This document shows, piece by piece, positions 42,913-55,365 of a stretch of 64,000 nucleotides of DNA. Location: positions 1-64,000 of the forward strand of contig CALUWE010000007.1 in NCBI GenBank assembly GCA_944324425.1, written 5' to 3'. The DNA comes from Candidatus Gastranaerophilales bacterium (GTDB taxonomy: Bacteria; Cyanobacteriota; Vampirovibrionia; Gastranaerophilales; Gastranaerophilaceae). Positions within the stretch are counted from its first letter, which is position 1, and each line of letters opens with the position of its first letter. Both the position numbers and the translations under genes were made by a program. Below the pieces are notes generated by a model. That model searched no databases, was not told the origin of the DNA, and was given only the letters and a program-made list of their open reading frames with translations.

Positions 42913-42940
42913 AAAGCCGAAGGAAAAGACCTTCGGCTTT
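42913..42940. terminator. bidirectional terminator between the transglycosylase and the phage-like operon
   Basis: AAAGCCGAAGG (42913-42923) pairs perfectly with CCTTCGGCTTT (42930-42940), loop AAAAGA. The minus-strand side has the better T run. The stem overlaps the stop codon of the peptidase at 42939. Confidence 0.88.
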
Positions 42941-43331
42941 AATATTTTAATACCCGTTTTCTGTTCTTGCCTTTATTATAGCTTATGTGAACCCATTTGT
43001 CATATTCATTTATTAATTGGTCAAATTCAATTTTGGATGTTTTTATAATTGATATTATTTGGTTTGGCGTTATTCCTAAAACCGTAAAATCAACTGCTTG
43101 ACCTTTTGTATGCTGGCTTGAATTAACACCGCCAACTAAACGGTTTACAAGAGGGTTTCTATATCCTGAAGTTATAATCATAGGCGCACCTAAAAGTTCT
43201 CTTACAGGCTGCAGGCAATAATAAATCAAATTCAGCATATTATCCATTGAATTTATATCAGGCATATTGTTTATGTTGTTTTTAATTGCGGTTTCAGAAT
43301 AAATTAATTCTGACATTTTGAAATTTAACAT
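42939..43331 (-). CDS. endolysin, peptidase M15-type
   Basis: 130 residues. The zinc peptidase motifs of the D-Ala-D-Ala carboxypeptidase/endolysin family are present: ITSGYRNPLVNRLVGG, then SSQHTKGQAVDF (H-x6-D) and WVHISY (second His). It would cut peptide cross-links of peptidoglycan, either to release particles or to aid injection. No signal peptide, so release needs a holin. It overlaps the upstream gene by 7 bases and is the last gene of the operon. Confidence 0.88.
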   Translation of the reverse strand: MLNFKMSELIYSETAIKNNINNMPDINSMDNMLNLIYYCLQPVRELLGAPMIITSGYRNPLVNRLVGGVNSSQHTKGQAVDFTVLGITPNQIISIIKTSKIEFDQLINEYDKWVHISYNKGKNRKRVLKY

Positions 43332-43594
43332 TTATTTTTAATCTCCGTAACTGCTGTAATTAAAAGGCTTTTTACATCCGAAATATCATGCTGTAATTGA
43401 AGCATTTGTTCTTGAAGGGCTTTGTGGTTATCTGCGTATGTATCTTTTGAAAGATAATTTTTGGCTAAAGTCTCCATAATTTTTGCCTCCAGCGATTTAA
43501 TCTCGCTGTTTCTTGCAAAAATGTTAAGCCCCATTATTATGTGCAAAACAGCAAGTGCTGTTGTTCCGTATAAAATAATATGGTTTATATCCAT
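43325..43594 (-). CDS. holin-like single-span membrane protein
   Basis: 89 residues. One N-terminal membrane helix (IILYGTTALAVLHIIMGLNIF) is followed by a coiled-coil of about 60 residues ending in Cys. Position just before the endolysin suits a holin or spanin-like partner. The topology with a single helix is also seen in tail-anchor proteins, so the role is inferred from place. GAGG ribosome site upstream. Confidence 0.6.
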   Translation of the reverse strand: MDINHIILYGTTALAVLHIIMGLNIFARNSEIKSLEAKIMETLAKNYLSKDTYADNHKALQEQMLQLQHDISDVKSLLITAVTEIKNKC

Positions 43595-44023
43595 TTATAT
43601 CCAACCTCTTATAAACTTTTGCCAAATTTCTACGCCCAAATACATAATTTGAGCTTTTATTGAACTTGCCCCTTCTTGTAATAGGGCTTGTTTAAAAATT
43701 CTGCTTGATAAAATTCTGCAATTTCTTACAATAGCTTTATTTGTAAGAATGTAATCATGGATTATTGAGGCAGGCAAATATTCACCCTTATGACTGCACC
43801 CTAAAAACCATCTGAAGGCTCTTGGTATTGTGCAGCCGTCCGATTTAAAGCCCCTTTTAATCACAAAATGGCGGTTAAATCTTTTTGAAATTATATTTAC
43901 ATAAATATTTTGAATGATGTAAAAAGGCTTGTCTGATTTGTGATTGTAGCCAATACTTTCACTAAAATCAGAATAAGTTAATTTGATTTCAGTTATATTT
44001 TCTAAATTTTTTGATAAGTCCAT
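43595..44023 (-). CDS. DUF1353 phage protein
   Basis: 142 residues. The diagnostic stretch is FVIKRGFKSDGCTIPRAFRWFLG followed by PASIIHDYIL, as in the DUF1353 family found near phage lysis genes, whose function is unknown. The stop abuts the holin-like gene and its start lies inside the preceding small gene (35-base overlap). Confidence 0.8.
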   Translation of the reverse strand: MDLSKNLENITEIKLTYSDFSESIGYNHKSDKPFYIIQNIYVNIISKRFNRHFVIKRGFKSDGCTIPRAFRWFLGCSHKGEYLPASIIHDYILTNKAIVRNCRILSSRIFKQALLQEGASSIKAQIMYLGVEIWQKFIRGWI

Positions 44024-44228
44024 TTATTTTTTCTATATCATCTTCCGTTAGTAAGGGTAAGTATTTGTAAATAATTTCAATAATTTCTTCTGATATATCA
44101 ACCGCTTTTTGCAAGTTTTTTCTGTCTTTTAATATTGCGGTTTCAGATTGTTTCTTTTTAAAAGTGGTGAAGCTATCGAAAACGCTTTTAACAGCGTTTC
44201 CGACTGCTTCGATTGCACTTGTTAGCAT
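43989..44228 (-). CDS. small phage-region protein
   Basis: 79 residues, helical: an amphipathic start (LTSAIEAVGNAVKSVFDSFTTF), then a helix pair with EEIIEIIYKYLPLLTEDDIEKI. No family recognised. It overlaps neighbours on both sides, which suggests translational coupling. Confidence 0.6.
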   Translation of the reverse strand: MLTSAIEAVGNAVKSVFDSFTTFKKKQSETAILKDRKNLQKAVDISEEIIEIIYKYLPLLTEDDIEKINGLIKKFRKYN

Positions 44229-44461
44229 TAATTAACACCTTCTATATTGCCTTCAATCCCGTCGATTTTATCAATAATTTCATAAAGTTTAGGCAATAAG
44301 GTTACTTGAACAAATTCATATGCCGCATCATCTATTGTGTTTTTTGTATCTTCAACAACAGCTTCAATAAGTTTAATTGCAGTATCTACACCCAATTTTG
44401 TTGCTTTTTCACCGCCTGTTAAGGCAATTTGTTTTAAGTTTGTTTTTAGTTCTTCATTCAT
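44228..44461 (-). CDS. small phage-region protein
   Basis: 77 residues, helical and acidic (KLGVDTAIKLIEAVVEDTKNT, then LLPKLYEIIDKIDG). Not recognised; it resembles the small helical proteins between fibre and lysis genes of many phages. GGAGTT ribosome site. Its stop overlaps the next start by one base. Confidence 0.6.
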   Translation of the reverse strand: MNEELKTNLKQIALTGGEKATKLGVDTAIKLIEAVVEDTKNTIDDAAYEFVQVTLLPKLYEIIDKIDGIEGNIEGVN

Positions 44462-44473
44462 AATCTAAACTCC

Positions 44474-45163
44474 TTATTCACTTAATAATTTTGTGTAATC
44501 ATTTGTTTCAAAAAAATCATCAAGCTGTTTGCTTGAAAAGCCCAAAAGTGTGCCAACTTGGTTGATATAAGGGTTTCCACGATAAAAATTGTTTGCTTTT
44601 AATTCAATTTTTAAGGCTTTTATATCAATTAAAGGCTCGCCCGTTTCTGTTAACGGTTGTGCTTGAATTAGCGTTATAACATCGTCAAAATCAAGCCCTT
44701 TGGCTTTATATATTGCTCTTTCAACATCGGCAGCGGTTAAATTGAGCATTGCAATTCTTTCTGCTTCTTCTTGCGCTTTTTCTTCTTTAATTTCGGTTTC
44801 TGTTTTTTGAACAATTTCATTGTTTTGAATTTTAAAATTATTAGGGTTTTCTTTAATTAATTCTGCCATTTCGGTTGTTATAAGATAATTTTCTTCAATT
44901 TCGCCAATTTCTGTTATATCTTTAATATTAAAATTTTCATCACAAATTTTATGGCTTACCCTAAAATCTTTTTTTATTTCCCAAGACTCACCGTTAAAAA
45001 TTGCAACTTCACCTTCACCTGTTTTTGGCGGTTCTACAAGTGTTGCATAAGCCGGAACCAAAGGAATAAATTCACCTTTTATTTTAGTTTCCATAGGGTC
45101 TGCACTTGCTATTGTTGTCATTAAATATTCTTTTGTATTTGGGTCAAAATTATACAAGTTCAT
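44474..45163 (-). CDS. tail-fibre assembly-like protein
   Basis: 229 residues. The N-terminus (FDPNTKEYLMTTIAS, then PLVPAYATLVEPP and EVAIFNGESWEIKKDFR) matches the tail-fibre-assembly/adaptor repeat that ends with GxxWxxxxDxR. The middle is Glu/Lys coiled-coil (about 120-150). The C-terminus is helical and unfamiliar. It lies directly after the fibre gene, as chaperones for fibres do. Confidence 0.7.
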   Translation of the reverse strand: MNLYNFDPNTKEYLMTTIASADPMETKIKGEFIPLVPAYATLVEPPKTGEGEVAIFNGESWEIKKDFRVSHKICDENFNIKDITEIGEIEENYLITTEMAELIKENPNNFKIQNNEIVQKTETEIKEEKAQEEAERIAMLNLTAADVERAIYKAKGLDFDDVITLIQAQPLTETGEPLIDIKALKIELKANNFYRGNPYINQVGTLLGFSSKQLDDFFETNDYTKLLSE

Positions 45164-45182
45164 TTTCTATTTTCCTTTCTTT

Positions 45183-45836
45183 TTAAGCAAATCTGGTTTT
45201 AACTCTCACTTTAACTGATGGCGGCTGAACGGTCGTTGAGTTGCCGTAAATTGAATTTGAATAAGAAGCATTAAAGCTCAGGGTATCATATCCGCTTCCG
45301 CTGCCGTTTGCTATGCCGCTTTTGCTAAGGGAATTTGCTATTCTTAAAGCACCGTCCATGGCGCTATTTCCGTGGAATACAGCTGAAATGCCGCCATAGA
45401 TATTTGGCAAACCCGCTTCAACATAGCCAAAAGTATTGTCATTGCTGCCCCAAATGGCTCTGTTTCTAAAATCTGGCAAGTTAAACGTGGTTTCTCCATC
45501 GCCTTCACCGTATGTTGTACCGTAAATTTCAAATAATTGAGCGTACGTTTCTCTTGAAACTTCAGCACCTTCAAGCCAAATTTCATTTTCACCCAATGTA
45601 TTTGACAATGTAGGAATGGGATTGCCGATACCTTCCAATAAGGCAATTCTCGTTTCGTGATCTTCAATTCCGTTTTCGATATTGTTAAGATTTTGTGCAT
45701 TAACAGGTGTTCCAAAGGTTAAAATATTGTCCGGAATATCTTGAATTGTTGTTGTGCCGTCTGAATTATTAATTAATTCATAGGTTCTTTCTTTTTCAAC
45801 CTCTTGATCAACCCAAACTGTTTTATTGTAGGTCAT
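45183..45836 (-). CDS. tail fibre with phage collar domain
   Basis: 217 residues. The N-terminal part (KTVWVDQEVEKERTYELIN through TPVNAQNLNNIENGI) is a trimerising attachment domain. The tail collar domain follows: EIWLEGAEVSRETYAQLFEIYG and TTFNLPDFRNRAIWGS. The Gly/Ser-rich tip ends VKVRVKTRFA. It is short for a fibre, so the particle has short receptor-binding tips. It sets host specificity. Confidence 0.85.
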   Translation of the reverse strand: MTYNKTVWVDQEVEKERTYELINNSDGTTTIQDIPDNILTFGTPVNAQNLNNIENGIEDHETRIALLEGIGNPIPTLSNTLGENEIWLEGAEVSRETYAQLFEIYGTTYGEGDGETTFNLPDFRNRAIWGSNDNTFGYVEAGLPNIYGGISAVFHGNSAMDGALRIANSLSKSGIANGSGSGYDTLSFNASYSNSIYGNSTTVQPPSVKVRVKTRFA

Positions 45837-45848
45837 TTTATTCTCCTT

Positions 45849-46340
45849 TTATATAGTTAATTCATTACATCTAAAGGTGTTGCACCTTTTTTCGTAGCTT
45901 GTAAGCTTAATATTAAAAATGAGGTGAGCCGGTCTTGAATTGAAAAGTGCCTGATAAAGCTTTTCTTTGTAATTTTCATCAATTAAATAGACCGTAAATT
46001 GGTATTTTTCAGCTTCATTTGAAATATAAAATTGGCTGCCGTCAATATTCCTTTTGATAAAATTAATCAGCTCTTCTTTGGTTAGTCTTTTTTTAGCAAG
46101 CATTTTGTTTATAACATTTTTTCTTCTCGTATCGAGGCTTAAACTTGGATTATATGGTATGCCATAATCTTCTTCAAACCTTTTTACCCCGTCAACCGAA
46201 CAAGTGCTGATTGAACATTCAAGCAAAATTTGAGAAAGTTTTAGCTTTATTCCTTCTATTTCGGGTTCAATTGCATCTAAAATTTCACTTGTATATTTTT
46301 CTTCCGCAATAAATTTGGGAAGATTGTCTTTTAATGTCAT
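45849..46340 (-). CDS. baseplate protein, XkdU/YmfQ (DUF2313) type
   Basis: 163 residues. Position after the baseplate J gene and the layout LDAIEPEIEGIKLKLSQILLE, then FEEDYGIPYNPSLSLDTRRKNVINKMLAKK match the DUF2313 family, equivalent to phage gpI wedge proteins that link the baseplate to the fibre. Confidence 0.8.
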   Translation of the reverse strand: MTLKDNLPKFIAEEKYTSEILDAIEPEIEGIKLKLSQILLECSISTCSVDGVKRFEEDYGIPYNPSLSLDTRRKNVINKMLAKKRLTKEELINFIKRNIDGSQFYISNEAEKYQFTVYLIDENYKEKLYQALFNSRPAHLIFNIKLTSYEKRCNTFRCNELTI

Positions 46341-46351
46341 CTATCCTCCTT

Positions 46352-47407
46352 CTATTCGTCTGTATTTAAAGTAATTTCTCCTATTATGGGAATTTGCAGG
46401 TTGTTTACCTCAATGCTTTCTGTTCCTGAATTTAAAAGATAGTTTGAAGCATCTTCGATACCTTCAACTGCAAAAAATAAGTTTGAAATATAAAGATAAG
46501 AAACAAGATGGGGCAATTTCGAAAGATAGTTTTCAATGAGATTTGAAAATTCGCTCAAAACGGATGAAATTTCATAGCCTTCTTTTAGCTTAATGTCTGC
46601 CTCTATATTGATTTCAAAATATTCTAACGGCAAGACATTCAAGTTTGCATTTATAATTTGCTCGCTTTGGATTTTGGTTTTAACTTCTTGAATAAGTTTG
46701 TCTGAAACCTCGGCATTATCGTTTGCCGATATATAAACATTTACATTGCCTGCGCCGGCTATGCTTGCATCTTGTACGACCACATTATTAACACCGTTGA
46801 TTTCTTTTGCCCACATTGTATAATCGGCAATATTTGAATTTGCAGTGTTATTTCTTAAATATTCAAGAATTCTTTCCCTGAATTCTTCGGTTGTTTCTTC
46901 TTCAAATCCGTCGTAGCCTTCGCTTTCGTTTGTAATTTTTGCATTTTCAAAGCCATCATAGCTTTCGCAAAATTCAATTAAAGCTCCTTTTTTGATATTT
47001 CCTATAATTCCTTTTGATAAACATTCCATCCTGATTTCTAAGGTGCCGTTTACATCTGCGTTTTTTTCTTCTGTTGAGGCAAATATAATCTCATCTTTTG
47101 TTTGCGCCGTAGAATTTGCCTGTAATTTTGCATATGGGCTTGCATTTGTAATTTTTGCAATAACAATTGCGTTTGTTGCTTCTTTTTTATATATTCCAAG
47201 CTCTTGTCCTTTAATTTTTAAATGTTCTTCATCGGCAGTTAAAACAAAGGCGTTATCCAAAATCACGTCAATTCTTGTATCAATTATATTTGCAAGTTCA
47301 TAACTCACGCTTCCGATTATATCTTGGGTTAATCCGCCTTCTATGGTTGTTGCGGACGTATTTAATCTTGAATTTATTCTTTGCCTGACGTCTTCTTTTG
47401 TTGTCAT
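46352..47407 (-). CDS. baseplate J-like wedge protein (XkdT)
   Basis: 351 residues. TAPTxxG-like GGLTQDIIGSVSYELANIID at the N-terminus, the GIIGNIKKGALIEF beta segment, EEFRERILEYLRNNTANSNIADYTMWAKEI, and VNVYISANDN are hallmarks of the Baseplate_J family. It is the main wedge component that triggers sheath contraction. ATG start at 47407; the next gene starts 11 bases after its stop. Confidence 0.92.
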   Translation of the reverse strand: MTTKEDVRQRINSRLNTSATTIEGGLTQDIIGSVSYELANIIDTRIDVILDNAFVLTADEEHLKIKGQELGIYKKEATNAIVIAKITNASPYAKLQANSTAQTKDEIIFASTEEKNADVNGTLEIRMECLSKGIIGNIKKGALIEFCESYDGFENAKITNESEGYDGFEEETTEEFRERILEYLRNNTANSNIADYTMWAKEINGVNNVVVQDASIAGAGNVNVYISANDNAEVSDKLIQEVKTKIQSEQIINANLNVLPLEYFEINIEADIKLKEGYEISSVLSEFSNLIENYLSKLPHLVSYLYISNLFFAVEGIEDASNYLLNSGTESIEVNNLQIPIIGEITLNTDE

Positions 47408-47409
47408 GT

Positions 47410-47850
47410 TTACTCCTTCCCGTATTCTATATTTTGTTCAAACGCTCCGTAAATTGTGCTAACCGTGAATGATGCACTTACAAGCGCATTGGTTTTGTTA
47501 AAGCTAAAGTTGCTGATTTCTTTGATATAAGGGTTTACAAGCAGGGCTTCTTCAATATATCTTTTGAGCTCGGATTTCAAAAGAGAATCCTTTAGATGGC
47601 GTCCGAAAAGTTTTGTTATCTCGTTTCCGTAATTATTTGAATATGCTCTGTGAGAATATCTTGAAGTTTCTCTGTTCAATGCTTTTAAAATCCAAATTTT
47701 CAGAGCTTCGTTTTTTGAAACCAAATAAAATTGACCGTCTTCGGTTAACAGTTCAAGTGTTTCTAAATTTCTTGCAGGCTCATAAATAATTGGCAGTGCT
47801 TCCGTTTTTGTTTCATCATTCAGTGTAACGGGTATAAAATTAAAGCTCAT
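47410..47850 (-). CDS. baseplate protein, XkdS (DUF2634/gpW-like)
   Basis: 146 residues from the ATG at 47850 with AAGG 5 bases upstream; a GTG two codons earlier is less likely. ILKALNRETSRYSHRAYSNNYGNEITKLFG is characteristic of DUF2634/GPW_gp25 proteins, the lysozyme-like wedge fold of contractile baseplates. Confidence 0.85.
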   Translation of the reverse strand: MSFNFIPVTLNDETKTEALPIIYEPARNLETLELLTEDGQFYLVSKNEALKIWILKALNRETSRYSHRAYSNNYGNEITKLFGRHLKDSLLKSELKRYIEEALLVNPYIKEISNFSFNKTNALVSASFTVSTIYGAFEQNIEYGKE

Positions 47851-48295
47851 CTTCACCTTCCATTTCTTTTAAAATATCAATGGCAACTTTGCACAGCACC
47901 AAATAACAGTTGTTTCCGAGTTCATACACGGCAATTAAATCGTTTGGGTTTAAAATGTATACAGATTGCCAATTTTTATAAAATTCGTAAAATGCAGTCA
48001 AAAAATCAGGCAAGCTGCCCTCAATGGCGCCTGTAAACTGCGGCGAATTATATGCGGTAGTGTTTACAAAATTTTGTTCTTCTTTAATTGTTTCCTTGTC
48101 CAGTTGAATTAAAGAAGATGTTAAAAGCGGGTGTATATATATTTTATCCTCAAGTTTTGTGCCTATTTCAATGTTTTCGTATACAAAAATAAAAGGATTT
48201 ATACTTTTAACGGTGCAAATTTTTACTCCCTTAAAATTTAATTTGTCCGAATATTCGCTAAATGTATCTAAAATTTCTCCTGCCCAATTTTGCAT
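47840..48295 (-). CDS. XkdR-like (DUF2577) protein
   Basis: 151 residues. It lies between the hub and the W-like gene, the place of XkdR. The beginning resembles DUF2577: a helix, then GVKICTVKSINPFIFVYENIEIGTKLEDKIYIHPLL. Some homologues are spike-associated proteins. No other candidate for a spike (gpV) is present, so this may carry that function. Confidence 0.65.
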   Translation of the reverse strand: MQNWAGEILDTFSEYSDKLNFKGVKICTVKSINPFIFVYENIEIGTKLEDKIYIHPLLTSSLIQLDKETIKEEQNFVNTTAYNSPQFTGAIEGSLPDFLTAFYEFYKNWQSVYILNPNDLIAVYELGNNCYLVLCKVAIDILKEMEGEDEL

Positions 48296-48298
48296 ATA

Positions 48299-49069
48299 TT
48301 AAATTCTTTCCTTTAGTTCAAGTTCCATTGTGTGAGTATTGCCGTAAGTGTGAACATCGCTTTTTACGGTAAAATACCCCTTTTTATTGTTAATTTTGTC
48401 TATAAGACGAATAACGCATCCCGATACAATATTGTCATCGCCAATAGCCACAATAAAAGCGTTATTTAGTGAATCATCTTTGCTGAAAAATGCAGATATA
48501 ACATTTTCGCCCAATATAAAGTCGCCTCTTGAATTGTCTCTGAAAGGCAGTAAAACATTTAAGGAAGAGTCGCCGTCTATATAAAGTTTAAATTCTTCCG
48601 TGGCATAAAGGTTTTTTATAAAAATTTCCAAAATATCATAGCGGCTTAAATTGCCCAAGCTTACAACATTCAATTTGTTTTCAACGGCGGTTTTTATATT
48701 TTGCAAATTTGAGTATATTTTTAGGCCGCTCAGCAAATTGTTAACGGCATTGAAAATTTTACCGGCAAATCTTCCTGTTACTTTTTCGTTTAAAAGAATC
48801 GTAAAATAATCATTCGCTTCTATTTCGACAAGTTTTTTGTCGGCCATGTAATTAATTCGTGTTATAAAGCCGCTAAAAATGCTTTTGTTATTGTCATTTT
48901 TAATTTTGACGGTTGAATTTATTTTTGCTTTATATTTTATAAAGTTGGAATCATTTTCATTATAAACAAATGAAAACTTTGCACTCCTTGAAATAAGACT
49001 GAGGCAGCCCCTTATTGTTGCATTGGTATTTACGGTTTTTATCTCATTGTCATCTATATAGAATTTCAT
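48299..49069 (-). CDS. baseplate hub protein, XkdQ / late control D type
   Basis: 256 residues from the ATG at 49069, 1 base after the previous stop. A longer in-frame start at 49132 overlaps the LysM gene by 62 bases and gives residues without resemblance. The beta-rich start KFYIDDNEIKTV and the KLVEIEANDYFTILLNEKV middle fit the gpD/XkdQ hub that forms the trimer under the tail tube. It is shorter than the ~325-residue relatives. Confidence 0.75.
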   Translation of the reverse strand: MKFYIDDNEIKTVNTNATIRGCLSLISRSAKFSFVYNENDSNFIKYKAKINSTVKIKNDNNKSIFSGFITRINYMADKKLVEIEANDYFTILLNEKVTGRFAGKIFNAVNNLLSGLKIYSNLQNIKTAVENKLNVVSLGNLSRYDILEIFIKNLYATEEFKLYIDGDSSLNVLLPFRDNSRGDFILGENVISAFFSKDDSLNNAFIVAIGDDNIVSGCVIRLIDKINNKKGYFTVKSDVHTYGNTHTMELELKERI

Positions 49070-49070
49070 T

Positions 49071-49736
49071 TCAGCTTTTGCCCCCTTGAGTCTGAAGTTT
49101 GACACCTTCAATATTGGCATTTGGGTCATCAATGCCGTTATTTTTGGCTAAAGTTTTATAATCAAGGCCGTATTTGTCCGCAATTGAATAAACAGTGTCT
49201 TTTGAGGTCATTAAAATGAAGCTTGGCAGATTAAGCGAGTTATTTCTTGTTATAAGTCCGTTGCTGGAAATTATTTTATATGTGGGGTTTCTGTACTCAA
49301 GAAGTTCCAAAATATACGGTTTTGAAGAAATACTTTCTCTTATTGTTTGGCTGAATGATGCAACCATACAGTCAATGCTGATTTCATCATCAATAACAAG
49401 CCTGATTTTTGTCTGCCCTTGTGTCCATTTTGTCAGGATGGATACCGCTTTTTCCAAGGAAAACTCATCTTCTATGTATGTTGAATTTTTATTTGAATAA
49501 TAGGTTATACCTGAATATGTTTTAAAAACACTGTTATCTTCGGGTAAAAAATGCGAAAGGGTAATTTTTAACGGTTTTTGGTATGCCATAATATTTACTT
49601 CGCCAAATCCTATGATTTCATAGCTGTTAAAACTTTTTTCATATTTTATTTCAATGCTTTTGGGGTTTATCGGCAGAACAATTTGTTCTCCGGTTGTTTC
49701 CGAATAAAGCATTATATTGAGTCTTTTGGTTGCCAT
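49071..49736 (-). CDS. LysM-containing tail protein (XkdP)
   Basis: 221 residues. The C-terminal LysM module includes MTSKDTVYSIADKYGLDYKTLAKNNGI (about 172-200). The N-terminal beta region (ETTGEQIVLPINPKSIEIKYEKSF) is the XkdP/gp53-like tail-tube-initiator part. It sits between tape measure and hub, as in PBSX. Similar LysM tube-initiator proteins occur in extracellular injection systems. Confidence 0.88.
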   Translation of the reverse strand: MATKRLNIMLYSETTGEQIVLPINPKSIEIKYEKSFNSYEIIGFGEVNIMAYQKPLKITLSHFLPEDNSVFKTYSGITYYSNKNSTYIEDEFSLEKAVSILTKWTQGQTKIRLVIDDEISIDCMVASFSQTIRESISSKPYILELLEYRNPTYKIISSNGLITRNNSLNLPSFILMTSKDTVYSIADKYGLDYKTLAKNNGIDDPNANIEGVKLQTQGGKS

Positions 49737-49751
49737 TTTGCCATTCCTTAA

Positions 49752-50387
49752 TTAATACTTGTTGGAAATACTTTTATTTCTAGCTGCAATTTTTAATGCT
49801 TCAGCAAGCATTTTTCCGAATTCGTTAAAATTGTTATTCTCTTCTTTAGCTGAAAAATTGGAAATATTCAGGCTTGTTTTATTTAAAATGCTCTTTGATT
49901 CATTAATTTTGTTGGTAATTTTTGTTATGTTTTGATCAGATGATGTTTTATTGTTAATTTTGGTCTTGCCTGTGTCTTCTTTGTTGTCCGGCAAGGTGTA
50001 AGAAAAGTTTGTGTGTTTTGTGTTGAAGTTAAAAAAATCGTTTTTGACGGTATAAAAATTTTTGATATTTTCCAAAAAATTGTTCAAAACATTGCCGTTT
50101 TCAGTTGTTTTATATTCATTGTTTTTTGAACCTTTATTTTGGTCTGCTTTCTCCTTTATTTTTTGCTTTTTTTGTTTTGGTTCATTGCTTTCGGCATTTT
50201 TTTTATTAGAGGCTTTTTCCCCTTTGTTTTGATTATTGGTTTTGTCTGTATTATTTTTCTTTTTTTCCTTGGCGGCAGAGAATAAGCCTCTGTCGCCAAT
50301 TTTAACTGCGAGATTTTCTTGAATTTTTTTGTACGGTTCAATTAATTCAATAATTTTTTTTATTTTGCTGTAAATATCAACTATCAA
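49752..50387 (-). CDS. short low-complexity protein in the tape-measure slot
   Basis: 211 residues with a TTG start that overlaps the stop of the frameshift product. It sits between the tail chaperone and the LysM protein, where the tape measure gene always lies. Yet it is short and dominated by Lys, Asn and Glu (residues about 35-100), with little of the long hydrophobic helix content of tape measures. Tape-measure length sets tail length, so the tail would be very short if this is the functional protein. No membrane segment or lytic domain is seen. Confidence 0.6.
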   Translation of the reverse strand: MIVDIYSKIKKIIELIEPYKKIQENLAVKIGDRGLFSAAKEKKKNNTDKTNNQNKGEKASNKKNAESNEPKQKKQKIKEKADQNKGSKNNEYKTTENGNVLNNFLENIKNFYTVKNDFFNFNTKHTNFSYTLPDNKEDTGKTKINNKTSSDQNITKITNKINESKSILNKTSLNISNFSAKEENNNFNEFGKMLAEALKIAARNKSISNKY

Positions 50388-50922
50388 TTTATATCCTCTG
50401 TGCTTATTAAGTATTTTGCATATAGAAATATCTTTTCAAATTCGCTTAACTTGAGGATTTTATCGGGCAAAATGCCATATTGCAAATAGTAGGCACAAAG
50501 CCCGAGCTCAAAATCCTCTTTTATGGCTTTTTTTGAAATTCAACTTCCTCCTGAAAGATACTTTTGGGGTTTAAATTATTTTGCTCAATAATAAATTCAA
50601 TGATTTTTAAAATATCATCAGGTTCAAAAAGCATTTCTATAACTTCGTAATATGTTTTGATATAGCCGTTTTCTTTGGCTTTCAGCGCTACATTTTTCAG
50701 GTTTAGCGCTTTATAAATTACAGGTTTCATCCATTCGTAAATTTCGCCAAAACTGTTTCTTTCAACGGCTTTAAGGGAAAACATCAAATCAAGTTTTTCG
50801 CTTCTTGTAAGTCCTTCGACTTCAAAAATGCTGTCTTTAATTTTCAGTGTTGTTTTTTCTTTTTTATTTCTGTTTTGATAATTTTCTTCTATTTTTTTTA
50901 ATAAAATTTCAATATTTTCCAT
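50384..50922 (-). CDS. -1 frameshift product of the tail assembly chaperone
   Basis: Shifting -1 at the slippery heptamer (50533-50527) skips the stop of the shorter protein and adds 46 residues: AIKEDFELGLCAYYLQYG..., ending KYLISTEDIN at 50384. The total is about 178 residues. The extension is open and its stop overlaps the next gene start, as in the G/G-T tail chaperone pair of phage lambda and related pairs in contractile phages. Confidence 0.75.
50521..50922 (-). CDS. tail assembly chaperone, XkdN-like
   Basis: 133 residues. The core EVEGLTRSEKLDLMFSLKAVERNSFGEIYEWMKPVIYKAL fits the XkdN family of contractile-tail chaperones, which escort the tape measure before tube assembly. It ends KKP-stop right after the AAAAAAG slippery site. 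Spacing of 3 bases from the tube gene. Confidence 0.8.
   Translation of the reverse strand: MENIEILLKKIEENYQNRNKKEKTTLKIKDSIFEVEGLTRSEKLDLMFSLKAVERNSFGEIYEWMKPVIYKALNLKNVALKAKENGYIKTYYEVIEMLFEPDDILKIIEFIIEQNNLNPKSIFQEEVEFQKKP
50527..50533 (-). promoter_or_regulatory. programmed -1 ribosomal frameshift site
   Basis: On the minus strand the mRNA reads C-AAA-AAA-G as codons CAA AAA AAG, that is A AAA AAG in the X XXY YYZ form, the most efficient bacterial -1 slippery heptamer. The 0-frame stop follows two codons later. The -1 frame stays open to 50384. Confidence 0.8.
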
Positions 50923-50925
50923 TTA

Positions 50926-51354
50926 TCAGTTTTTCCCGTTAATTAAATCGACAACTACAATGTCAGAAGCTCTGAACCTGAATGTTTTTTCAATCAGAGC
51001 GCCCTTTTGCCAATTTGCAAGCGGAAATTCATCAAACGTTACACCGTTTATTGTGTATCCTTCTTCTTCGCCGTTTGCAGCAGGGTCTGCCAAGTTGCAT
51101 TCTATTGTGAATCTTGTATTTGTGTTTTGAAGATATTTGTTGCAAAGCTCCGCAGAAATTGAATTAACGGATTCAAACGCAAGATCGCCCGCATATTGAA
51201 CAGAAACCGCTTGTCTGTCAATGGTAAAGCCGACAATAACATCTTCATATGTTGGAATTACTTTTAAATTTATATATTTCAAAATGCCTATTTCTTCGCC
51301 ATCGAGCCATACTCTTCCGTATGTGCCTCTGAGTGCTGCTTCAACGGTTGTCAT
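50926..51354 (-). CDS. tail tube protein (XkdM)
   Basis: 142 residues. GTYGRVWLDGEEIGILKYINLKV near the start and IECNLADPAANGEE later match the XkdM/phage tail tube family that polymerises inside the sheath. The gene lies 2 bases after the sheath gene. Confidence 0.92.
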   Translation of the reverse strand: MTTVEAALRGTYGRVWLDGEEIGILKYINLKVIPTYEDVIVGFTIDRQAVSVQYAGDLAFESVNSISAELCNKYLQNTNTRFTIECNLADPAANGEEEGYTINGVTFDEFPLANWQKGALIEKTFRFRASDIVVVDLINGKN

Positions 51355-51355
51355 A

Positions 51356-52441
51356 TTATTCTTCCTCGCTTTCTAATGATTGAAAAAGATAAAAACCAAG
51401 ATCTAAATCTTCCATACAATCTGTCGGTGAACAAACGCCGTCCAATATAACGTAAGATCCGGTGTTATATTGAATGACATCCTGATAGCTCATATTTTCG
51501 GTGCTGACGCCTTTGCCTTCTATGTAGGCTTTGGTTTTTTCGTAGCTTAAATAAACCTTGTTTTCGTTTGCTTCATCCAAAAGTCCTTCCGATGCGAGGC
51601 TTTTCAGATAGGTGTTAATCGCGCCGATAAAACGTTTCTTGTTTGCATAATTATTTATGTATTTGCCTACATAATTTTGTCTGAATGTTGAAACTATATC
51701 GCCTGCAATCATATCCATAATGTTTACCACTCTTATTTTTTGGAATGCTTCCGTCAAGCCGTCCGTCAAAGTTACAAGGGAATTAACGGCTCTGCCGAAT
51801 TTAAAGCTTCCGTCCTGATATATTATGACCAAATTGCCTTCTTTAACCGCTTTATCAGCATCTTGCGAAACATTGGCGTCAACTATTTCGCTCAATTCAA
51901 AATAGGTTAACGATCTGCTGTTTGATAATCCCGCTAAAGCTCCGGCAATTCTTGCCGTATACCTTGCAGCCGTTACGGTTTTTACTTCGTTATTGTGAGA
52001 AATTTTAATGTCATCAGATTGAAAATTGATAATATATGTTGAATCCATTCCTTCTGCATTGGCAAAAATTGCAATTGAATAGTTATTTTTCTCCCTTTTT
52101 TTATTAAGGTAGTTTTTAATTGCAACCATGTCGCTTTCGGATGCGTCAGGGTATACGAGAGTATAATTGTTGTATTTATCCAGCTTGTTTGTTAAGTCGG
52201 AAATTTCTTCTTCCTTTTTTAAAACGGTAACTTTTTTAGGGTTTCCTTTAAAGCAAAGTTCAATATTAAGGTAATTTTCGGGGGTTAGGCTGTCAGATTT
52301 CACTTCATTCAAGCCGCTATATGATATTTGGTCTGCTTCGGAATCCAAAACCATAATAATATGCCCCCTTGTTTGTCTTTTAATTGCTGCAACCGCAAGC
52401 TCTTTAAAAGTTACGGTAAAGCTTGGTTGTTTATCGGGCAT
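51356..52441 (-). CDS. contractile tail sheath protein (XkdK)
   Basis: 361 residues. FKELAVAAIKRQTRGHIIMVL, YVGKYINNYANKKRFIGAINTYLKSLASEGLLDE and the closing VCSPTDCMEDLDLGF mark the phage tail sheath family. Sheath contraction drives the tube through the target envelope. Length is slightly below the family's ~440, lacking the insertion domains of larger sheaths. Starts inside the end of the previous gene. Confidence 0.93.
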   Translation of the reverse strand: MPDKQPSFTVTFKELAVAAIKRQTRGHIIMVLDSEADQISYSGLNEVKSDSLTPENYLNIELCFKGNPKKVTVLKKEEEISDLTNKLDKYNNYTLVYPDASESDMVAIKNYLNKKREKNNYSIAIFANAEGMDSTYIINFQSDDIKISHNNEVKTVTAARYTARIAGALAGLSNSRSLTYFELSEIVDANVSQDADKAVKEGNLVIIYQDGSFKFGRAVNSLVTLTDGLTEAFQKIRVVNIMDMIAGDIVSTFRQNYVGKYINNYANKKRFIGAINTYLKSLASEGLLDEANENKVYLSYEKTKAYIEGKGVSTENMSYQDVIQYNTGSYVILDGVCSPTDCMEDLDLGFYLFQSLESEEE

Positions 52442-52868
52442 TTTTATTCTCCTTTATACTAAAATCAAGTTTTTGCATAAGTTCATACTCTGTTTCTTCT
52501 TTATTGGTGTAAAAGTTCAAACCAAAGGTCATAATAAGAGTTTTATTGTTAACCATAAAAACGACATTATCTAAAGCTATTTTTTTGTTTCCGAATTCAA
52601 TGACAGGCAAAAGTGCGGAAGATAATAATTCTTGCATTTGAAAAAGTTCAACGGGCTTATTTTCGCTGTTTTTCATACAAGTGAGTTCAAAAACAAGGCT
52701 GCAAAATTTTTTATTCAAATTATCTGCCGCTTGAACCTTAAAATCTTTCAAGTCAACAAAAATAAAAGGGAATTTTGTGTGCTTTATTTCGTCAAAATGA
52801 AAAATTATACTGTTATCAACTTTTGCGATGGCATTTTTTATTGAATTTTTAATCTCATCTATTAACAT
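52431..52868 (-). CDS. tail terminator/completion protein (XkdJ-like)
   Basis: 145 residues from the ATG at 52868; a GTG three codons earlier is possible. It lies right before the sheath, the place of XkdJ/DUF6838-type proteins. KNSIKNAIAKVDNSIIFHF then KFPFIFVDLKDFKV resembles such tail terminators. Overlaps on both sides. Confidence 0.65.
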   Translation of the reverse strand: MLIDEIKNSIKNAIAKVDNSIIFHFDEIKHTKFPFIFVDLKDFKVQAADNLNKKFCSLVFELTCMKNSENKPVELFQMQELLSSALLPVIEFGNKKIALDNVVFMVNNKTLIMTFGLNFYTNKEETEYELMQKLDFSIKENKNAR

Positions 52869-53205
52869 CAAAATCACTTTCTATAATTTTTTCTTGTCTG
52901 CATTTGATTTGAATTGAAAAGTTATAAATTTTAACTCCGCCTGCATATAGCGTGTAAATTTCACCCTTGGAAGTTACAACGCAAAGCTTGTCGTTTTCTT
53001 TGATTTGAATTTTTTCATCAAAATTGAGATAAATTGTAAATTCCGAGTTGAGAAGAGGTACATTTTGGCTGTATGAGGTATTGTTTAAATTTATTGCAAG
53101 ATGGCAGGGGATATTTTCATAAACGGTTTCATATTTTTTAGTTGCCAAGTTGTTTATAACTTCGTAATTTTCCCTTTTAACGGTTAAAATATCATTTTTG
53201 AACAT
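52855..53205 (-). CDS. head-tail joining (head closure) protein, XkdI-like
   Basis: 116 residues, mostly beta (LTVKRENYEVINNLATKKYETVYENIPCHLAI; KIQENDKLCVVTSKGEIYTLYAGG-like). The small beta barrel and position after the connector fit head-closure proteins such as XkdI/YqbH. Assigned mainly by position. Confidence 0.65.
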   Translation of the reverse strand: MFKNDILTVKRENYEVINNLATKKYETVYENIPCHLAINLNNTSYSQNVPLLNSEFTIYLNFDEKIQIKENDKLCVVTSKGEIYTLYAGGVKIYNFSIQIKCRQEKIIESDFDVNR

Positions 53206-53512
53206 CGTTTATTCCCCTTATTATTTTGTAGGAATCAAGTCTTCCGAAGAAGGGCGACAAGTTTGAAAAGGAAACGGAAAGGTCGCCCTCTGAGTAGGAT
53301 TGAACTTTTGCACCATTAAAAATATCACTTTTTAAGCAGTCTGATATAACGGAAACAACCGAAGCAAACATAAAATCTTCAATTTCGTTTCTGTTTAAAT
53401 AGAAGAGAATTTCATTAATTAAAGCTTCTATTTTGAGCTTTATGGTTTCATTTTCTTCCTTATCACTCATTTTTAAAACCGCTTCTATTATTTGTTCGTT
53501 TTGCATATTCAA
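53192..53512 (-). CDS. head-tail connector protein, XkdH/gp6-like
   Basis: 106 residues, helical: LKIEALINEILFYLNRNEIEDFMFASVVSVISDCL, then SEGDLSVSFSN. Helical adaptor proteins of this size follow the major capsid gene in siphoviruses and myoviruses and ring the portal. A connector without a portal in the same operon is puzzling. Confidence 0.65.
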   Translation of the reverse strand: MNMQNEQIIEAVLKMSDKEENETIKLKIEALINEILFYLNRNEIEDFMFASVVSVISDCLKSDIFNGAKVQSYSEGDLSVSFSNLSPFFGRLDSYKIIRGINDVQK

Positions 53513-53540
53513 TTCCTTTTTTCTTCGGTAACAGACTTAA

Positions 53541-54368
53541 TTATTGTTGTTGAGCAATTTTATGAACATAAATTGCCGATGCTTTGTTTGTTAGTACAAA
53601 CGCATCATGGATGATTCTTCCTTCGACAAGCGAACCTGAAACTCCGGGCGGATTTGTATGAATTTTGTATTCATTCAATTTAACGGGCGCACAAAGTGCT
53701 GACGGGTGAGTTACAACAAAATTAACATTTGCGCTAAAATAACTTGTCGGAGCAACTATAACGGGCACTCCGTCAATTTTTCCCACTTGGCCGTTTAAAA
53801 CAATTTGTTGGCCGAGGTCTGAATTTTTTATAAATGTTTCATCCAGCTTTAAAAATTTATAAAAAGAAGGTGTAACAAGTGCAACCCTGCCTACAATGGG
53901 CACTTTGTAATCTGATAATTTTTCCATGGCGGTTAAAAATTGCTCATAGGCGTTAGATTTCGTTGTAGCCGATGTTTCTGTTGTTTTGGCGCCTGCAATA
54001 AGTTTTGAAATGCGGTAAATATCAATTGCAGGTATAACAACTTCGTCAAGCTGGCGTCTTAAGGCTGCACCTGCTGATTTCACACCCTCTTGGCCAAGTT
54101 CATAGGCTTTATCAATTGTAAATGTGAAAGCTTTATCTTGAGATAAGGTTAAAGACTGTACGCTGTCTGATAATTCATCGGGTGTGCCGTATCTTTGCGA
54201 ACCTGTTTTTGTATAATCTGATAATTCGCTTGTTTCAATTGAATAAATTTTTACCGTGTCAACTCCCGTCCAGTCATAATCAAAGTTAATAATTGAATCT
54301 GTTAAAGAGCCTAACTTGAATCTTTCGTCAACTTTTGAAGAATACTTTTGTGCTAAATTTACTGTCAT
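53541..54368 (-). CDS. major capsid protein (HK97-fold)
   Basis: 275 residues. VNLAQKYSSKVDERFKLGSLT, YDWTGVDTVKIYSIETSELSDY, and ALRRQLDEVVIPAIDIYRIS closely resemble the capsid proteins of Firmicutes phages and prophages. PVIVAPTSYF and GVSGSLVEGRIIHDAFVLTNKASAIYVH close the fold. It would build an icosahedral head. No protease gene accompanies it, so it may not need maturation cleavage. Confidence 0.9.
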   Translation of the reverse strand: MTVNLAQKYSSKVDERFKLGSLTDSIINFDYDWTGVDTVKIYSIETSELSDYTKTGSQRYGTPDELSDSVQSLTLSQDKAFTFTIDKAYELGQEGVKSAGAALRRQLDEVVIPAIDIYRISKLIAGAKTTETSATTKSNAYEQFLTAMEKLSDYKVPIVGRVALVTPSFYKFLKLDETFIKNSDLGQQIVLNGQVGKIDGVPVIVAPTSYFSANVNFVVTHPSALCAPVKLNEYKIHTNPPGVSGSLVEGRIIHDAFVLTNKASAIYVHKIAQQQ

Positions 54369-54385
54369 TTTTATTCCTTTCTTTC

Positions 54386-54850
54386 TTATAATTTATTTGT
54401 GTCAAAACCTTCGATAAACGGGTCATACTCTTTATTTTTGGATGTTTGCGGCAATGGCGCATTTGAATAATCCTGAAAGATGCTTTTTTTAATTTTTTCA
54501 ATATAGGTTTTTAAAATTTCAATTTTTTCTTTTGTTTTTTCCATATTTAAAGGAACATATACTAGCTCTAAGGCATCTTTTTCAAGTCCCGCATCGTTTA
54601 ACAAACTGTAAACTTCTTCTTTTTGTTTTGCGGTCATGCATTCATTTTCTTTTTCCTGATACTTCGATCTCAATTTTTCTAACTCGGCTTTAGCTGTCTC
54701 TAATTCGTCTGCATCATCATTTTGGCTTTCTTTTTGATTTGAACCTTTTTTTTCGAGAAATTCTTTTTCGAGCTTTTCTCTAAATTCTTTCAAATCTTTT
54801 TCCGAATAAAGTTTTTCTTCTTCAGGTTTTTTGTTTTTGTTTTCTTCCAT
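54386..54850 (-). CDS. capsid scaffold-like protein
   Basis: 154 residues, almost fully charged coiled coil: an acidic-basic start, then AELEKLRSKYQEKENECMTAKQKEEVYSLL and a conserved-looking end (YDPFIEGFDTNKL). Position directly before the capsid and the composition fit DUF4355-like scaffolds. The scaffold is normally needed only to assemble closed heads. Confidence 0.75.
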   Translation of the reverse strand: MEENKNKKPEEEKLYSEKDLKEFREKLEKEFLEKKGSNQKESQNDDADELETAKAELEKLRSKYQEKENECMTAKQKEEVYSLLNDAGLEKDALELVYVPLNMEKTKEKIEILKTYIEKIKKSIFQDYSNAPLPQTSKNKEYDPFIEGFDTNKL

Positions 54851-54893
54851 TTACCTTTCCTTTCTTTTTGAAGTGCTCCACAACCTTCATAAT

Positions 54894-55076
54894 TCAATTA
54901 TAGGTGTTTGAAAAACGGGCATTTTTTGTGGGGTTCAAATGCTTGTTGCTATTGAGATACAGCTTAATTGCTTTGTTTATTATTTCATTCTTTGTAAGCT
55001 TTGTATTTTTTGAGGAATTTTCAAGCTCTGAATACGAAAAAGCAGGCAAAGAAACGTAAAAATTTACATATTCCAT
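54894..55076 (-). CDS. ribbon-helix-helix protein, possible operon regulator
   Basis: 60 residues. VNFYVSLPAFSYSELENSSKNTKLTKNEIINKAIKLYL has the strand-helix-helix layout of CopG/MetJ-type DNA-binding proteins. A strong GGAG site lies upstream. It is the first gene of the operon, and a 20-base inverted repeat lies just beyond its promoter. It could bind that repeat and control the particle genes; this is inference. Confidence 0.65.
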   Translation of the reverse strand: MEYVNFYVSLPAFSYSELENSSKNTKLTKNEIINKAIKLYLNSNKHLNPTKNARFSNTYN

Positions 55077-55279: not shown

Positions 55280-55365
55280 TTGCAAAAAAAGCGAAATTGA
55301 TGTATATTATTATTGTTGTTAATGCTTCGGATAGTATGCGAATGGGTAGAAATACCCTTTTTTTT
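55280..55365 (+). ncRNA. candidate small RNA unit with own promoter and terminator
   Basis: TTGCAA (55280-55285), 17 bases, TATATT (55303-55308), then about 50 transcribed bases with GGATAGTA (55329-55336), and a GGGTA-GAAA-TACCC hairpin (55344-55357) followed by eight T. No ORF with a ribosome site. It resembles the leader at 42264-42362 in promoter, GGATAGTA and GGGT...ACCC hairpin. The stretch 55159-55279 holds nothing I recognise. Confidence 0.5.

Follow-up and report, generated by a model that had tools for sequence, protein, structure and literature searches.

We examined a 64,000-nucleotide window from a Gastranaerophilales genome (1.84 Mb, 97.9% complete), in which a 12-kb gene cluster (42939-55076) is flanked by host genes. 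The comparison covers nine genomes of one Gastranaerophilales genus (G000-G008); all are drafts, and at least some are metagenome-assembled. Within the cluster, a 211-codon open reading frame with a TTG start, hereafter the slot gene, is the sole full gene between an XkdN-type tail assembly chaperone and a LysM gene. The cluster and its upstream border are laid out as follows:

42939-43594, minus strand: lysis genes, comprising a holin-like protein of 89 aa (a holin by sequence appearance only) and an M15 endolysin (PF08291)
43595-44461, minus strand: two small proteins (77 and 79 aa) and a DUF1353 protein (PF07087), in an order that matches Dulem virus 31
44474-45163, minus strand: fibre assembly protein (phrog_105)
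45183-45836, minus strand: collar-domain fibre (PF07484)
45849-46340, minus strand: Gp48-like tail protein (PF10076)
46352-47407, minus strand: baseplate J (PF04865)
47410-47856, minus strand: sheath initiator or baseplate wedge (PF10934)
47840-48295, minus strand: conserved 151-aa baseplate-region protein (by position; orthologues in 9/9 genomes)
48299-49132, minus strand: YqbQ-like hub (PF24032, phrog_400)
49071-49736, minus strand: XkdP-like LysM tail protein (PF01476, phrog_380)
49752-50387, minus strand: slot gene, 211 aa, presumed reduced tape measure (ORF, orthologues, dN/dS)
50384-50533, minus strand: -1 frameshift site and T-like extension (conserved in 7 species; lost in G003)
50521-50922, minus strand: XkdN-like tail assembly chaperone (phrog_4976, E 5e-9; missing in G002)
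50926-51354, minus strand: tail tube (PF09393, phrog_365)
51356-52441, minus strand: tail sheath (phrog_1480, E 5e-91; single strong copy in 9/9 genus genomes)
52431-53512, minus strand: tail terminator and two head-tail connectors (PF20765, phrog_615, phrog_132)
53541-54368, minus strand: major capsid protein, MCP (phrog_422, E 1e-63; dN/dS 0.03-0.06)
54386-54850, minus strand: scaffold (phrog_172)
54894-55076, minus strand: ribbon-helix-helix protein, possible regulator (phrog_3180, E 4e-5)
55302-55365, minus strand: near-invariant non-coding block, possible control site (8-genome alignment)

The hub gene probably starts about 65 bases further in, given orthologues of about 253 aa. Within the 12-kb cluster we recognised no portal, terminase, integrase or replication gene, and Rfam returned no known RNA family there. 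A defence-system reading was rejected, as PADLOC gave no match for the five proteins scanned. The upstream non-coding block, which is about 64 bases long and likewise free of Rfam matches, is almost invariant in eight genomes, in contrast to the near-saturated synonymous sites of the coding regions. Beyond it, an 8xMP-family membrane protein gene (PF24838; 55453-55920, minus strand) flanks the cluster in each of the eight genomes with a contig reaching this position, and may be a host neighbour or a part of the element.

The slot ORF is a real gene, because it has orthologues with the same boundaries in related species, a dN/dS of 0.26-0.51, and a conserved C-terminal segment. Identity is 39-49% among close relatives, placing the gene among the fastest evolvers of the element; it is still constrained, most visibly at the C-terminus. 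Lys makes up 19% and Asn 17.5% of the protein, and their sum of 36.5% is the highest of the 27 proteins taken from the cluster and its vicinity for comparison.

The chaperone and the slot gene are linked by a putative programmed frameshift. A slippery heptamer, A AAA AAG (50527-50533), lies within the last codons of the chaperone, and a -1 shift there leads into a 47-aa T-like extension that fills the gap before the slot gene. The extension ends at a TGA (50384-50386) overlapping the TTG start, and its protein sequence is conserved in 7 species at 45-79% identity. A chaperone, a frameshift and the next gene form the classical layout of a tape-measure slot, as in lambda (G-GT-H) and in XkdN-XkdO. 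We assign 49752-50387 to this slot because the conserved chaperone extension overlaps its start. The preliminary description had placed a Lys/Asn-rich protein of 211 residues in the tape-measure slot as the only gene between the chaperone and the LysM gene; both points hold, with the -1 extension accounting for the gap.

We compared the slot across the genus and in free relatives. Seven species carry slot proteins of 275, 232, 211, 210, 208, 204 and 197 aa, about one third to two thirds of the usual tape-measure length. G003 has a 55-aa stub retaining the conserved C-terminal segment only, and the frameshift site has gone from its chaperone. In G002 both the slot gene and the chaperone are absent, and 57 bases separate the last matched base of the tube gene from the LysM start; relocation of the two genes was rejected, as the chaperone search gave only an E 0.09 match with internal stops and the slot search gave none. 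The G002 element does not resemble a copy in decay, because constraint on the genes it still has equals that in its sisters (pN/pS 0.25-0.27 for MCP, 0.33-0.34 for sheath and 0.18-0.22 for tube) and the amidase-like and holin-like genes downstream are kept.

Dulem virus 31 (PP511318) and its IMG/VR relatives share the structural gene order and families of the genus element, with identities of 60% for sheath, 63% for capsid, 54-58% for portal and 59-61% for terminase. In the same slot, Dulem virus 31 encodes a 482-aa protein of the TMP_3 family, and nine complete viral-contig cases (ten with Dulem virus 31) encode proteins of 418-598 aa; in more distant phages that share the sheath type, 569-1105 aa are encoded at the slot position. 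None of the free relatives examined has a slot gene as short as those of the genus. TMP_3 found no match elsewhere in the nine genomes, and the Dulem virus 31 tape measure as query gave a single 69-aa chance-level match there, so relocation of a long tape measure was rejected. A deletion or assembly glitch limited to the window's genome was also rejected, as the shortening is genus-wide. The comparison of lengths proposed in the preliminary description thus separates 0-275 aa in the genus from 418-598 aa in free relatives. The long tape measure it had allowed for in homologous loci does exist in those relatives, but not as the sign of a deletion in this one genome, and no separate tape-measure gene turned up. 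It had also posed a choice between a short tail and missing length control; both seem to occur, as seven species carry a short tape and the other two a stub or nothing.

The preliminary description had singled out the helical and coiled-coil content of the slot protein for checking. The AlphaFold model has a mean pLDDT of 51.7 (low confidence) and a disordered middle, with helices at 3-30, 100-113, 150-172 and 187-210 only, of which the C-terminal one alone is predicted with confidence (block mean reaching 88); as modelled, the protein is not a long coiled coil. No transmembrane-like segment was found. The protein has no detectable homology to ten free tape measures (hhalign probability 0.1%), no notable match to known tape-measure families (none to TMP_3) and only chance-level matches to solved structures (E 0.1, 0.27). 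By sequence similarity it falls outside the tape-measure families; by position, directly after a chaperone with a programmed frameshift, it stands where a tape measure is encoded.

Could the slot protein have another role? An ancestral tape measure may have been lost on domestication and a new accessory factor, acting in tube initiation or as a hub plug, may occupy its place, with tail length set otherwise, for instance through early capping by the tail terminator. Such a factor would suit the absent homology to free tape measures, the disorder and lack of a long helix, and the situation in G003 and G002, where only the C-terminal segment or no gene is left. We consider it unlikely, because the slot directly follows the GT frameshift, the frameshift vanished along with the long form, as would follow if the slot protein is served by GT, and the seven long forms span a narrow range of 197-275 aa. 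On balance, the best reading is that the slot protein is a drastically reduced or replaced tape measure, and we argue that it does the tape-measure job, or a remnant of it. With homology undetectable, this assignment is based on position, coupling to the chaperone and co-loss: the frameshift disappeared with the stub in G003 and the chaperone with the slot gene in G002, which supports a tape-measure role. Weighing against it are the mostly disordered protein (in a low-confidence model) and the fact that G002 seems to manage without the gene. Relaxed length control would produce such a loss pattern, in which the frameshift is gone with the long form and both genes go together, and length control may be in the process of being lost in some species of the genus.

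The element is distributed over three separate loci: the structural and lysis cluster, a lone portal beside ftsY, and a lone terminase. Searching 116 relatives with the sheath revealed a single strong copy per genome in the other eight members of the genus (66-88%) and at most 28% identity outside the genus, and the capsid search agrees. Using the Dulem virus 31 portal as query, we found a single-copy portal in 9/9 genus genomes; in the window's genome it lies directly beyond the window end (C7:64084-65358). It adjoins ftsY in 8 genomes, at a syntenic locus beside nusB-ftsY; the G007 contig begins at the portal. The terminase is single-copy in 8/9 genomes, always adjoining a small gene of about 121 aa, and was not found in G001 (genome 89% complete). 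It sits beside trpBA in G000, G004 and G008, and contig coordinates place it close to the structural cluster in G002, G003 and G005. In G003 and G005 a single contig carries the loci over about 52-57 kb, which exceeds the 35.8 kb of the related phage genome; in G000 they lie on different contigs. Dulem virus 31 is a free phage with contiguous terminase, portal and MuF genes, replication genes and the 482-aa tape measure, whereas the genus element has three loci, no MuF and a slot gene of 0-275 aa. The public record of PP511318 (L031) assigns it to Microviridae, in contradiction to the gene content of this sheathed-tail phage of 35.8 kb.

Several candidate readings fit this gene content and distribution poorly. 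A capsid without portal or terminase, our first reading of the cluster, was dropped when both were found at other loci. An R-type tailocin or extracellular contractile injection system does not agree with a capsid and scaffold in the cluster and a portal and terminase elsewhere. The three loci differ from a single-locus PBSX-like element, and a PICI-like phage satellite is at odds with the cluster lacking an integrase and being genus-wide rather than sporadic. A search for a relocated Mu-F minor capsid gene gave nothing but one weak 121-aa match in G007. The preliminary description was right about the slot, its shortness and the dilemma this poses; beyond its view lay the portal and terminase at other loci, which point to a capsid-bearing GTA-like element with packaging genes of its own instead of a lone sheathed particle. 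In the genomes read, a conserved palindrome-like sequence, TTTCTAATAGATATATCTAATAGAAA, and its variants occur upstream of the 121-aa gene and TerL (L052, 7707-7760). An operator shared by the loci was rejected: this palindrome is absent from the window, and the 27-base core of the cluster's invariant block is found a single time in each of the five genomes searched and not at all in the viral contigs. G007 also carries a second, distantly related contractile element (L026, G007:C84; sheath 24-26% identical), probably an ordinary prophage.

All three loci are under purifying selection (for the terminase, in eight genomes). With synonymous sites near saturation between deep clades, dN/dS is 0.03-0.06 for MCP, 0.04-0.06 for TerL, 0.07-0.10 for portal and 0.09-0.15 for sheath. 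Sheath and portal contain no internal stop codons. Trees of MCP, sheath, portal, TerL, baseplate J and LysM all recover the deep split of host nusB/ftsY with 98-100% support, their shallower branches being unresolved. A decaying prophage remnant, in which the short or missing slot gene is simply part of the decay, would explain the missing Mu-F-like minor capsid gene and the loss of all integration and replication genes, as well as the slot, chaperone and fibre genes being the most variable. We regard decay as very improbable given intact ORFs under purifying selection at three loci in nine species, despite near-saturated synonymous sites, and the stop-free sheath and portal.

Gene transfer agents (GTAs) are particles derived from tailed phages, endogenized, often at several loci, and vertically inherited; they do not fully package their own genome but mostly random host DNA, which they deliver to other cells (PMC9662315). 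The genus element encodes tailed-phage-derived capsid, portal, terminase, sheath, tube and baseplate families, is endogenized at three loci between host genes with no integrase in the cluster, and has been inherited vertically, as indicated by its presence in 9/9 genomes, the synteny of the portal and the shared deep split. At the level of genes, these are genomic hallmarks of a GTA under the published definition (PMC9662315), and the element looks like a contractile GTA derived from a Dulem-virus-31-like phage. Considering the observed gene order, genus-wide single copy, purifying selection, separate portal and terminase and shortened slot gene, we think it likely that 49752-50387 occupies the tape-measure slot in a contractile phage that has been domesticated and is now a GTA-like element at three loci with a very short sheathed tail.

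We propose that the particle would assemble with capsid and portal, package mostly host DNA and be released by the lysis genes, and that its tail would be sheathed and very short. In well-studied phages, the C-termini of tape measures anchor at the hub end. As a minimal tape measure, the slot protein may dock at the LysM/hub end through its conserved C-terminal helix, while the chaperone frameshift product (GT) would coat or escort the rest. The tube would then grow until the slot protein is covered, when the terminator would cap it. Its variable middle may set or loosely limit the length: 211 residues, helical throughout, compute to about 32 nm, or roughly 30 nm, and a disordered chain would loosen the relation between residues and length. 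With a 55-aa or absent slot protein, the tube might consist of a few rings or a minimal stub, or be capped by the terminator at random without a ruler. It is conceivable, though rather doubtful, that the G002-type particle assembles a sheathed tail without tape measure or chaperone, its length being set otherwise or reduced to a minimal stub.

PBSX of Bacillus subtilis resembles the genus element in its Xkd-type contractile tail, and it packages host DNA; it differs in occupying one 33-kb locus and in killing rather than transferring. The genus element could similarly act as a bacteriocin that packages host DNA or none, delivers nothing and kills related strains, for which a short tail would be suitable. 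The shared Xkd-type tail families and the precedent of PBSX, a tailocin in action that packages host DNA fragments, speak for this. We judge it improbable since portal and terminase are strongly constrained at separate loci, as opposed to the single region of PBSX, and particles of the PBSX family have long tails (227 nm in PBSX-like particles of B. pumilus).

GTAs and contractile particles that package host DNA (PBSX) are already known; what would be new is a contractile candidate spread over three loci, present throughout a Gastranaerophilales genus and carrying a shrinking tape measure. If this is true, it would represent a contractile multi-locus GTA candidate in Melainabacteria/Gastranaerophilales, of which our literature search, with many subscription papers outside its reach, found no report. 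The genus would also offer a natural series of tape-measure lengths (275 to 55 to 0 aa) against a sheath, tube and baseplate that hardly vary, making length determination of a contractile tail with a shrunken or absent ruler directly testable.

Elsewhere in the family there is a separate element, podovirus-like and about 9.8 kb long (L090, 6464-16223 in G127; also L089 in G021). It encodes a LuxR-type HTH protein, an amidase, a 508-aa virion protein, a capsid, TerS, a 551-aa portal/adaptor, TerL and a holin-like protein, with no integrase seen. About 50 other Gastranaerophilaceae genomes carry it, usually as a single copy (capsid 63-100%); it occurs more distantly in other families and is absent from the window's genus. 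It recalls the GTA of Faecalibacterium, FpGTA, and is possibly an older GTA lineage that was replaced in the window's genus.

RcGTA of Rhodobacter capsulatus is, like the genus element, multi-locus and vertically inherited with a short tape measure: about 216 residues for a 49-nm tail of five tube hexamers, and aberrant particles without tape measure occur. Unlike the genus element, it is of a non-contractile siphovirus type, of independent origin, and its function has been demonstrated by experiment. FpGTA likewise belongs to a gut anaerobe and has GTA-like genes over two operons and a tail that is very short or not visible, but it is podovirus-like, lacks a sheath and has experimentally demonstrated packaging. 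A short slot gene would fit the short or invisible tails of these two GTAs.
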